A stretch of DNA of 64,000 nt from Nitrosospira sp. NpAV (GTDB lineage Bacteria > Pseudomonadota > Gammaproteobacteria > Burkholderiales > Nitrosomonadaceae). Positions 29,507 to 34,480 of this stretch are shown in pieces. Positions within the stretch are counted from its first letter, which is position 1, and the number at the start of each line of letters is the position of its first letter. Position numbers and translations under genes: made by a program. The notes beneath the pieces are model-generated. The model was given only the letters and a program-made list of their open reading frames with translations. It made no database searches and was not told the DNA's origin. The DNA lies in NCBI RefSeq assembly GCF_000832065.1, contig NZ_JXQM01000014.1, positions 39,532 through 103,531 on the forward strand, read 5' to 3'.

Positions 29507-30493
29507 ATGAGCATGAAACCCGTTCGGATTGCCGTCACCGGTGCTGCCGGTCAAGTGAGTTATGCTTTGCTTTATCGCATCGCCAGTGGCGAGATGTTAG
29601 GAAAAGATCAGCCGGTCATACTGCAATTGCTCGAACTTCCGAACGAGAAGGCGCAGGCAGCACTAAAGGGTGTAATGATGGAGCTGGAAGACTGCGCTTT
29701 TCCCTTGCTCTATGGAATGGAAGCCCATAGCGACCCTACGGTCGCCTTCAAGGACACTGAGTATGCACTTCTAGTGGGTTCCCGGCCGCGCAGTCTGGGT
29801 ATGGAACGAACCGAACTTCTAGCCGCCAATGCGCCGATATTTACTGCCCAAGGTAAGGCGCTCGACGCTGTCGCGAGTCGGGATGTCAAAGTGCTGGTCG
29901 TTGGAAATCCGGCGAATACAAATGCTTGGATTGCGATGCGGAGCGCGCCGAGCCTCCCTCGGGAGAACTTCACCGCTATGCTGCGGCTGGATCACAACCG
30001 TGCCCTCAGTCAACTCGCCGCTAGGACGGGCAGGCCCGTCTCCTTGATCGAGCATTTGGCTGTCTGGGGCAATCATAGTTCTACTATGTACCCGGATTAT
30101 CGGTTTGCTTCCGTTGAAGGCGCGAGTGTCAAGGGTATGATAAACGACGATGCTTGGGGCAAGGATGTATTCCTGCCTACTGTTGCCCAGCGGGGCGCGG
30201 CGATCATCGAAGCGCGTGGACAATCGAGCGCCGCTAGCGCGGCAACCGCGGTAATCGACCACATGCGCGATTGGGTCATGGGCACGCAAGGTAGGTGGGT
30301 CACGATGGGGGTTCCCAGCCAGGGCGAATATGGCATTCCAAAGAACGTCGTATTCGGATACCCGGTCACCTGCACCGAAGGAAAGTACGCCATCGTCGAA
30401 GGGTTGAAATTCGACAAATTCAGCCAAGATCGAATTGAGAGAGCGTTAGCCGAGCTGATTAGCGAGCAGGATGCTGTTAAGCACTTGCTCTAG
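29507..30493 (+). CDS. mdh: Malate dehydrogenase (NAD-dependent, cytosolic type)
   Basis: This enzyme interconverts malate and oxaloacetate. The 328 residues are full-length: NAD fold VTGAAGQVSYALLYRIASGE, substrate arginines in GSRPRSLGMER, VVGNPANTNAW, and the catalytic Asp-His pair in LRLDHNRAL and VWGNHSSTMYPD. The usual GARPRGPG loop is changed to GSRPRSLG. A strong AGGAG site precedes the ATG. It is the first gene of a five-gene same-strand cassette with a citrate synthase homologue, so it may be a cassette-specific paralogue rather than the housekeeping copy; which one cannot be told here. Confidence 0.92.
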   Translation: MSMKPVRIAVTGAAGQVSYALLYRIASGEMLGKDQPVILQLLELPNEKAQAALKGVMMELEDCAFPLLYGMEAHSDPTVAFKDTEYALLVGSRPRSLGMERTELLAANAPIFTAQGKALDAVASRDVKVLVVGNPANTNAWIAMRSAPSLPRENFTAMLRLDHNRALSQLAARTGRPVSLIEHLAVWGNHSSTMYPDYRFASVEGASVKGMINDDAWGKDVFLPTVAQRGAAIIEARGQSSAASAATAVIDHMRDWVMGTQGRWVTMGVPSQGEYGIPKNVVFGYPVTCTEGKYAIVEGLKFDKFSQDRIERALAELISEQDAVKHLL

Positions 30494-30615
30494 AAAAACA
30501 GGGACGACTCGCGTCAGCGGCAGGAATCTTTTTTTGGTGTACGAGACGCACATTTAGGAAACCCAAGGGACAATACCCTGTGCGGATGAATCCGCGCAAT
30601 GCCTTGGAGAAATCT

Positions 30616-31734
30616 ATGCGAGCAACAAAAGTGCAATTCGATAAGGTGATCGCGTCCCAGACCGAGCTTAGTCTAATCGATGGGAGGACCGGGCGACTTT
30701 GTATTCGGGGCGTCGATATTCAGGAGTTGGCACGAGATGCAGAGTTTGAGGATATATTTTATCTACTGTTGCACGGTTCGCTGTCAAGAGGCAGAGAGCG
30801 GGAGGACTTCCGGCGCGGTTTAGTAGCCAGTAGATGTCTTTCTGAACTCAGCCAGACTGTCTTAAATTGTTTCCCATCCCATTCACGTCCGATTCACGTG
30901 GTTAAGGCGGTGTTGGCCGCTGAAGGCGCGATCTGGGATGATGCGAAGTCGGAATTGGAGACCATGATATCGTGTGTCGCGACGTTACCTATGATTGTAG
31001 CGGCGGTCCACCGTCTCAGACAGCGCCTAAAGCCTCTGCCAGCGGTTCGGGAGCTTGGTCATGCCGCAAATTTTCTCTATATGCTTAGCGGTGAAAAAGC
31101 GAGTGAGCAACATGCAAAGGCTATGGATACATACATGGTCTTGATGGCAGAGCATGCCCTGAATGCCTCTACTTTGAATGCACGTGTCATTGCCTCAACA
31201 GGCGCTTCTTACTACCCTGCCGTTATAGGTGCAATTTGCGCACTTCAGGGGCCGCTGCATGGCGGGGCGCCGCCCCTTGTATTGAACCAAATCGATGAAG
31301 CTCTATGCGCTGCGGATATCGAGAAGTGGTGCAGTGATCAGTTGGCAAAAGGTTTACGACTCATGGGATTCGGTCATCCTGTGTATGAGACCATAGATCC
31401 AAGATCTGAGATATTCAAGGATATACTTCAGGTCCTGGACCCCGAGATGCATGCCAAAGCACACGATCTTGAGCAGCGGATCCTCAGTTTCCTTCGGCGT
31501 CACAAACCTGAACACCCATGGCTGACGAATGTGGAGTATTACTCTGCACTCGTATTGCGTTCAGTCGGGGTGCCGTCGGACCTCCTGGTAACGGCGTTTG
31601 CCTGTGCCCGTATCGCGGGCTGGAGCGCTCATATCGCTGAGCAGCGTAAACAGCAGAAAAGTGGCCTAGCCGGTGTGATGCATCCACGGTCGGTTTATAT
31701 CAGGAAGGTCGCTGCTGGTCCAGAATCCCCTTGA
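30616..31734 (+). CDS. Citrate synthase homologue with Glu at the catalytic Asp position
   Basis: The start at 30616 is chosen because TTGGAGA lies before it and MRATKVQFDKVIASQTEL fits the short-form family; a GTG at 30580 is the alternative. In 372 residues the CoA/oxaloacetate histidines are present at H180 (EHALNAST), H215 (GPLHGGA) and H254 (GFGHPVY). The general base expected as Asp in NVDYY is Glu307 (NVEYY), and the usual GHRVYK is GHPVYE. It could be a citrate or methylcitrate synthase, or condense another acyl-CoA with a 2-oxoacid. Neighbours: MDH upstream, nucleotidyltransferase 17 bp downstream. Confidence 0.85.
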   Translation: MRATKVQFDKVIASQTELSLIDGRTGRLCIRGVDIQELARDAEFEDIFYLLLHGSLSRGREREDFRRGLVASRCLSELSQTVLNCFPSHSRPIHVVKAVLAAEGAIWDDAKSELETMISCVATLPMIVAAVHRLRQRLKPLPAVRELGHAANFLYMLSGEKASEQHAKAMDTYMVLMAEHALNASTLNARVIASTGASYYPAVIGAICALQGPLHGGAPPLVLNQIDEALCAADIEKWCSDQLAKGLRLMGFGHPVYETIDPRSEIFKDILQVLDPEMHAKAHDLEQRILSFLRRHKPEHPWLTNVEYYSALVLRSVGVPSDLLVTAFACARIAGWSAHIAEQRKQQKSGLAGVMHPRSVYIRKVAAGPESP

Positions 31735-33262: not shown

Positions 33263-33382
33263 GAGATGCGCCCACCAGATTCAAGATTTTCAGAGATCCC
33301 GAACCTTATGACTGCTGGATGAAGGTGCATCGCGCGGGGAGGAGCAACGTCATTGCCATGTCTTTTTTACCAGGAGAACGCT

Positions 33383-34480
33383 ATGCGTTTGGACCTCATA
33401 GGCGGTGACTTAGTCTGTCCCGTCTGTGTAAATGACGCTCACAACCTACCCCCTCTCGAAGCTGTGCCATACGCCGGTAAAACTGAGGCGGTTCCTGAAA
33501 TGACCTCAACATTCGAGGCCGGGGTTCTTCATTGTTTACGATGCGAACGCAACTTCTGTGTAGAGGATGGGATAGGATTCTTTTCTGGACCACCTCATTC
33601 GGCCGGAAGGAAGGATGACTTTGGCAAAGGACGATATGACTCCGAGGCTTATGCGCGCGCCTACATTCAGACCCACTTTCGCGATGTGATCGCGGACGAC
33701 AAGGCAGCGCGCACCCATCTCGATCTGCACGACGTCACGGGTTTCTATTCGTGCTCAGCAAACAATATGTACTATCGGTCGATGGCCGAGATGCTCTTCA
33801 CTAAACTCCCTCTCGGTGCCACAGTGCTCGACCTAGGGTGTTCGGTAGGAAGACTCTCCCACGAACTCGCGCGGCGGGCTCGAGTTGTCGTAGGCGCTGA
33901 TTCCTCCGAAACTCATATTCGGGTTGCCAAAGCGATACAACGGCATCGCCGCGTCTCATTTCGCGTGGGGGAGGCGACGGTTTCTGGAAAGTACGTAGAA
34001 GGCCCGGAGATCGTCGTGGATGTGTCCTCCGTCGTTCGCAACAACGTGGTTTTCGTGGTCGCTGACGAACAACGTCTTCCCTTCCGTCGCTTCGACGGGA
34101 TCGTATGCTCGGCGGTGATTGAACGCGTGCCAAACTTGGAGGCGTTCCTCCGTACACTGCGACATCGAATACACGACGGCGGCCTCCTGCTACTGAGTAG
34201 CCCCTTCGATCAGGACGAGCGCTTCGTCGACCGTAGCAACTGGCTGGGCTATGGCGCGTACGGCACTGAGTTGGGTACAGCAGAGGAGTCGCTTCGTAGA
34301 TTGGCGCAACGGTTAGGATTCCATCCGATAGGCAAAATCGGTAGTGTAGTAGAAGGTGGACCAAGTCCACATGACGACGCTTACCGGCGCGACCTAAGGT
34401 GGATTACCTATAATGACAGGCGCAAGCACATGGTCTGGAGTGTCCACGCGGAACTGTTCGAGGCGCGCGACTCGTTGTGA
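33383..34480 (+). CDS. SAM-dependent methyltransferase with N-terminal zinc ribbon
   Basis: The ATG at 33383 is chosen for its AGGAGA site; an in-frame ATG at 33353 is upstream of that site. In 365 residues an N-terminal Trm112-like zinc ribbon has C12/C15 (VCPVC) and C51/C54 (CLRCERNFC). A class I methyltransferase fold follows with motif I VLDLGCSVGR at 148-157, GADSSETHIRVAK, and a late acidic loop GIVCSAVIERVPNLEAFL. The substrate is unknown. It lies 120 bp after the previous gene and closes the cassette. Confidence 0.82.
   Translation: MRLDLIGGDLVCPVCVNDAHNLPPLEAVPYAGKTEAVPEMTSTFEAGVLHCLRCERNFCVEDGIGFFSGPPHSAGRKDDFGKGRYDSEAYARAYIQTHFRDVIADDKAARTHLDLHDVTGFYSCSANNMYYRSMAEMLFTKLPLGATVLDLGCSVGRLSHELARRARVVVGADSSETHIRVAKAIQRHRRVSFRVGEATVSGKYVEGPEIVVDVSSVVRNNVVFVVADEQRLPFRRFDGIVCSAVIERVPNLEAFLRTLRHRIHDGGLLLLSSPFDQDERFVDRSNWLGYGAYGTELGTAEESLRRLAQRLGFHPIGKIGSVVEGGPSPHDDAYRRDLRWITYNDRRKHMVWSVHAELFEARDSL

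Follow-up and report, generated by a model that had tools for sequence, protein, structure and literature searches.

A block of five genes at positions 29507–34480 of a 64,000-nt stretch of Nitrosospira sp. NpAV contig NZ_JXQM01000014.1 (the whole stretch is referred to as the window) encodes a malate dehydrogenase (MDH; gene 1, mdh), a citrate-synthase (CS) homologue (gene 2), a NadD-like nucleotidyltransferase (gene 3), an orphan protein (gene 4) and an S-adenosylmethionine (SAM) methyltransferase (gene 5). With slightly better than even confidence, we propose that these genes form an inserted block, found at three sites in three Nitrosospira, that its mdh probably replaced the resident gene and that its other four genes specify a predicted short biosynthetic route.

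A five-gene block at three sites in three Nitrosospira genomes

All five open reading frames (ORFs) are intact, lie on the plus strand and had been placed correctly by the original prediction, which was made from the letters alone; the four-base overlap that it reported is that of genes 3 and 4 (32372–32375). It had also set the genes between a haem cluster and an unrelated reductase, which agrees with the HemY-like gene and the 2Fe-2S/FAD reductase gene that flank them. Within our set of 23 genus genomes (G000, the window's own genome, included), these two flanking genes adjoin in the other 22 out of 22, with 38–195 bp between their matches. The corresponding distance in the window is 5,494 bp (∼5.5 kb). 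Compared with the corresponding empty sites in G012 and G021, the two further Nitrosospira genomes with the cassette, the window is homologous up to 29127–29129 and again from 34602, with a lone, weak 16-base match at 29167–29182 in between. The five genes are thus an inserted block at the window site.

In G012 and G021, all five genes are again intact and in the same order, at different chromosomal places (3 of 23 genus genomes, three sites). Because the order is repeated at other sites in two genomes, the grouping exceeds chance, and the recurrence outside a tricarboxylic acid (TCA) cycle gene context, to which the original prediction had looked for support, was borne out. The nucleotidyltransferase gene is likewise confined to 3 of the 23 genus genomes, and the orphan gene to 3 of the 199 relatives searched, its own genome counted.

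Synonymous divergence (dS) between G012 and G021 was 0.083, 0.094, 0.062, 0.075 and 0.087 for cassette genes 1–5, whereas the core genes sdhA, zwf, prpB and prpC gave 0.393, 0.490, 0.611 and 0.460, respectively. Such low cassette values argue that the block moves between species. The G000–G021 pair gave 0.12–0.30 for the cassette versus 0.38–0.71 for six core genes. Within the core set, gltA of G012 was left out as lying outside the stretch compared, and one gene is glycogen-phosphorylase-like by sequence and partial in G012; the labels sdhA, zwf, prpB, prpC, gltA and HemY were assigned by reading translations. Purifying selection acts on all five cassette genes, with ratios of non-synonymous to synonymous divergence (dN/dS) of 0.12–0.27 for four of them and 0.35–0.45 for the nucleotidyltransferase.

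Some traces of mobility surround the other copies. On one side, the G021 block is bordered by genes for a resolvase and a Tn3 transposase; on the other lie transposase remnants, read from the translation. Since this one copy sits among Tn3-family genes, the cassette is perhaps a transposing unit. In G021, the mdh and CS genes are further separated by a 178-bp element that has inverted ends of 30 bases (L067 11253–11430). One 30-base end of this element borders only the G012 cassette (L068 9399–9428), and no copy of the element is present in the window. A plasmid search returned only distant matches of CS, OvoA-type methyltransferase and NadD type.

A malate dehydrogenase of likely foreign origin and the loss of the resident gene

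The cassette MDH scores 537 bits against the curated model of NAD malate dehydrogenase (PRK05442; cut-off 271). Its residues 2–328 align to PDB entry 1b8p, and the regions of the active-site Arg, Asp and His are kept, as judged by eye from the alignment. A tree built from 35 proteins places the cassette MDHs, a group of three with 100/100 support, on the side of 11 MDHs from other families of the order; the resident MDHs of the genus, 21 in number, are separated from them at 100/100. Sequence identities are 71–77% to those 11, the nearest retrieved from other families, and 58–62% to the 21 resident ones. The cassette mdh therefore likely came from another bacterial lineage.

A full-length resident mdh is present in 21 of the 23 genus genomes. 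Only a fragment of the gene is left in G000 and G012, each of which carries the cassette, so that the resident gene is lost in 2 of 3 carriers versus 0 of 20 non-carriers; the third carrier, G021, holds both the cassette and a full-length resident gene. Both remnants are C-terminal, comprise ∼80–90 codons and lie between the sdh genes and prpB, directly upstream of the latter (C64:29374–29640 in G000, equivalent to L069 12369–12644; L070 14010–14246 in G012). They share a deletion, and the G012 remnant has suffered further frame damage.

As judged from these sequences, the cassette mdh likely took over from the resident gene, i.e. by xenologous displacement, and its product likely provides the TCA-cycle malate dehydrogenase of the host in G000 and G012. 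The original prediction had proposed a comparison with second copies of mdh and gltA in the same genome, on the view that sole copies would point to central metabolism. For the CS homologue second copies do exist: it is one of three, the others lying near sucA/sdh-type genes and beside prpB. Apart from the cassette mdh, the genome has no full-length gene of the Ldh/Mdh family, and for this reason the cassette copy likely serves central metabolism too.

Residue changes in the citrate-synthase homologue and the NadD-like enzyme

Family matches were obtained for genes 1, 2, 3 and 5, to malate dehydrogenases, citrate synthases, cytidylyltransferase-like proteins and methyltransferases, respectively. 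Gene 2 matches PF00285 at 313 bits and keeps the catalytic His motifs GPLHGG and GFGH; it falls below the cut-off in all 22 of the 22 NCBIfam families matched. It resembles the PRK12350 (CitA-like) citrate synthases in fold, in both catalytic His motifs, in having Glu for the catalytic Asp and in the GGAP motif, and differs from them by a score under the cut-off (287 bits versus 332) and by a His at the position of E. coli Arg407. This Arg binds the substrate carboxylate. Among the 120 listed of 7,957 homologues, over which all residue counts were made, Arg is found in 118, as well as in the gltA and prpC products of the same genome; His is found in the three cassette copies and otherwise only in P0018 and P0094 (2 of 120). 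P0018 is a copy with 94% identity on a 12.5 kb contig, and P0094 is a 236-aa relative from JGI with 53% identity over 60%, on a contig of 11.7 kb. That P0094 has lost the Arg at just 53% identity indicates that the change is old and has been kept. The cassette copies, P0018 and P0094 also cluster in a CS tree, which has long branches and was used for that grouping only. Taken from its sequence, the CS homologue looks repurposed. Two further candidate marks did not hold: Glu for the catalytic Asp together with GGAP was rejected as cassette-specific, being present in 118 of the 120 listed homologues and hence a subfamily feature, and a change of GHR to GHP was set aside because the prpC product of the same genome has GHP too.

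Gene 3 shares the PF01467 fold and the GxFNPPHxxH and SSTxxR regions with NadD, although it scores only 58.6 and 55.6 against NadD models with cut-offs of 197 and 112. Unlike NadD, it has no SYT motif, which is missing in 3 of 3 cassette copies and present in 13 of 13 relatives; a conserved Asp is replaced by Ser in all three cassette rows (Asp in 13/13 relatives), and HxGH has become HxAH (3/3 copies, 0/13 relatives). This Asp was equated with Asp109 of E. coli NadD by motif, without direct alignment. An Asp109 mutant of the latter is reported to keep 0.038% activity (PMC1249556). Loss of SYT and the change of Asp to Ser make the public name of the Nitrosospira sp. Nsp5 protein, nicotinate-nucleotide adenylyltransferase, doubtful, and the NadD-like enzyme, too, looks repurposed by these residues.

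The orphan protein and the methyltransferase

Gene 4 belongs to no Pfam or NCBIfam family, and the deoxyribosyltransferase label of the original prediction found no support. Nor did a deoxyribosyltransferase/TIR-like fold, as searches of Pfam and PDB up to an E-value of 10 gave chance-level matches only. The best PDB matches were three EgtB chains (E 0.58–0.60, chance level), and structure models reached a predicted local distance difference test (pLDDT) score of 36–37, too poor to be used. One relative, with 93% identity, is from Nitrosospira sp. Nsp5, and another (P0002; ENA) is a 167-aa protein with 45% identity over 48% of the query. By their sequences, P0002, on a 6.2 kb contig, and the CS relative P0094 hint that distant versions of the cassette may exist beyond the genus. 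No relatives of the orphan were found in collections of genome contigs, viral contigs, plasmids and phages, which may omit near relatives of the window.

Gene 5 matches Methyltransf_23, and its best NCBIfam match is the C-terminal domain of OvoA (99 bits, cut-off 170). Of the "zinc-ribbon methyltransferase" that had been predicted, the methyltransferase family thus stands, and the zinc ribbon comes down to a weak Trm112 hint below the cut-off (E 0.09) and two CxxC pairs read by eye. Relatives of the protein begin at the ATG at 33383. Matches of some kind occur in 137 of 199 relatives, with close copies (91%) only in G012 and G021; the other listed matches are partial, mostly at 26–34% identity, and many lie in frames of ∼700 codons that we take for putative OvoA genes. 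The chance-level EgtB chains for the orphan and the OvoA C-terminal domain for the methyltransferase are both weak hints of thiol-histidine chemistry.

A proposed route and its alternatives

Under the explanation we favour, the block would move as a unit, perhaps by transposition, and MDH would feed oxaloacetate both to the TCA cycle of the host and to the CS homologue. The latter would condense an acyl-CoA with oxaloacetate or another 2-oxoacid like it. A nucleotide would next be transferred by the NadD-like enzyme to an acceptor other than nicotinate mononucleotide, the methyltransferase would methylate the product and the orphan would take a further step; all steps after MDH are read from protein families and residues. 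We infer, as the original prediction did, a small metabolite made through a nucleotide-linked step, presumably a nucleotide-activated, methylated compound derived from oxaloacetate or a similar 2-oxoacid. With the resident mdh lost, the block would be hard for the host to discard. A stronger version of this idea, which we entertain only tentatively, is that a minimal mobile cassette carries a housekeeping MDH as payload and becomes indispensable (metabolic addiction), thereby shielding a four-gene route to a new class of nucleotide-activated, TCA-like metabolites in which the CS homologue would no longer make citrate.

The five genes could also be transferred cargo without a joint pathway, mdh alone being useful and the other four genes being passengers. 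This would fit a normal MDH that is the sole full-length copy in two carriers, as well as the ∼180-bp repeat element that parts mdh from the remaining genes in G021. Genes 2–5 are nevertheless intact in three copies, with dN/dS of 0.12–0.45, and genes 3 and 4 overlap, which makes the passenger explanation rather doubtful. We consider it unlikely that the cassette supplies oxaloacetate and citrate to NRPS-independent siderophore (NIS) synthetases. Upstream of the block, G021 does have a cluster encoding three IucA/IucC synthetases together with a PALP protein and an ornithine-cyclodeaminase-like protein, but no such genes were noticed in ORFs near the block in the window (22–42 kb) or in G012 (20 kb), the rest of both genomes not being searched, and the nucleotidyltransferase and methyltransferase would be left unexplained. 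That the genes are a module for defence or directed at NAD, and not one for biosynthesis, appears quite improbable, even though the site is variable, one protein is an orphan, NAD-related families are present and PADLOC matched the methyltransferase domain of gene 5 to mad2 (E 5.5e-16). The other three of the four proteins given to PADLOC (four of the five in total) matched nothing, searches of viral contigs, plasmids and phages gave nothing for the orphan, and a citrate synthase has no place in such a module.

We give hardly any credence to a pathway to phosphonates or phosphinates that would imitate TCA chemistry. The phosphinothricin pathway includes a TCA-like condensation, and the cassette shares a PF01467 nucleotidyltransferase with the phosphinothricin and fosfomycin pathways. 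The enzymes in question there, PhpF and Fom1, activate phosphonates (PMC6697681). Those pathways differ from the cassette in that no phosphoenolpyruvate (PEP) mutase accompanies it in its genome: the original prediction had noted the lack of this enzyme in the window, and in the whole genome the sole PF13714 match is the prpB-like gene beside prpC. The phosphonate pathway was rejected on this search. The prpB-like gene has the lyase motif KRCGH.

Several observations weigh against the explanation that we favour. The 11 other-family MDHs in the tree were the members of the order most similar to the cassette MDH, so the tree gives the side on which the cassette falls, not its donor. No cassette gene was found within ∼1.5 kb at any of the 11 foreign mdh loci most similar to the cassette copy, and mdh may thus have joined the block late. 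The deletion shared by the two remnants means that the two resident losses were likely one event; the chance that both losses fall within the three carriers is 0.012 if they are independent and 0.13 if they are one event, which lends modest statistical support to a link between loss and carriage. G000 and G012 hold no other full-length Ldh/Mdh and no Mqo by searches with the Ldh/Mdh C-terminal domain and Mqo, malic enzyme not being searched. For the G000–G012 pair, dS ranges overlap (cassette 0.16–0.30, five core genes 0.25–0.61), so that vertical descent with relocation is possible for this pair. Finally, terminal inverted repeats and target-site duplications were looked for around the window copy and none were found, nor was any ORF adjoining the window copy or the G012 copy noticed to encode a transposase.

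Comparison with known systems and implications

Xenologous displacement of housekeeping genes is already a known idea. It is discussed for the plasmid-borne panCB genes of Rhizobium, for which the authors prefer an intragenomic move to displacement (PMC3082293). panCB resembles the cassette in that transferred DNA bears a housekeeping function and the usual chromosomal copy is missing; what sets the cassette apart is that it comprises five genes, occupies different sites, includes a predicted pathway and has one carrier with both copies. Judged by title, none of the literature matches listed deals with this block, which is not proof of absence; nor, on the same basis, does any of them describe a small block of several genes in which the replacing enzyme is accompanied by an uncharacterised pathway and which has carriers from both before and after the resident gene was lost.

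Stages in the replacement of a central-metabolism gene are visible here, with the resident mdh alone in 20 of 23 genomes, both copies in one and only the cassette copy full-length in two. If mdh holds the block in place, small accessory pathways can persist because they bring an enzyme on which the host depends, a mode of persistence unlike that of toxin–antitoxin pairs. Genes 2–5 are compact enough to clone as a set and may lead to a new metabolite of ammonia-oxidising bacteria. They also illustrate that automatic names such as citrate synthase and nicotinate-nucleotide adenylyltransferase can mask changed chemistry.

Features of the window and of the G021 region

Coordinates are collected in Table 1. 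The search for RNA families gave no match in the window, and a promoter and terminator scan showed no excess over shuffled sequences.

Table 1. Positions of the block, its genes and its flanks in the window
Feature	Position	Strand	Basis or remark
Gene 1, malate dehydrogenase (mdh), likely from another branch of the order; sole full-length copy in the genome	29507–30493	+	Curated score, PDB 1b8p
Gene 2, CS homologue, His at Arg407 position	30580–31734	+	PF00285
Gene 3, NadD-like nucleotidyltransferase, without SYT motif and conserved Asp	31752–32375	+	PF01467
Gene 4, orphan protein, 296 aa	32372–33262	+	No family; two relatives in protein search
Gene 5, SAM methyltransferase, N-terminal CxxC pairs	33353–34480	+	Methyltransf_23, OvoA C-terminal similarity
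Left flank, HemY-like gene	27908–29113	+	Present in 23/23 genus genomes
Right flank, 2Fe-2S/FAD reductase	34602–35651	-	Present in 23/23 genus genomes
Inserted block	29130–34601	+	Absent at this site from the other 22 genus genomes
DNA common with G021 cassette	29286–34482	+	blastn, 91–93% identity
DNA common with G012 cassette	29462–34482	+	blastn, 91–93% identity

The siderophore-type cluster of G021 extends over L072 838–9484 and L067 233–5778, where three IucA/IucC synthetases, PALP, ornithine-cyclodeaminase-like and PLP-decarboxylase proteins are encoded; a major facilitator superfamily exporter, a ParB-like protein and a TonB receptor were added by eye. To us, this arrangement recalls staphyloferrin B clusters. 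The gene that follows the prpB–prpC region in G000 (L069 16070–17527) lies just behind the cassette in G021 (L067 16285–17742), so that the siderophore cluster, the transposon genes and the cassette appear as one island in the prp region of G021.

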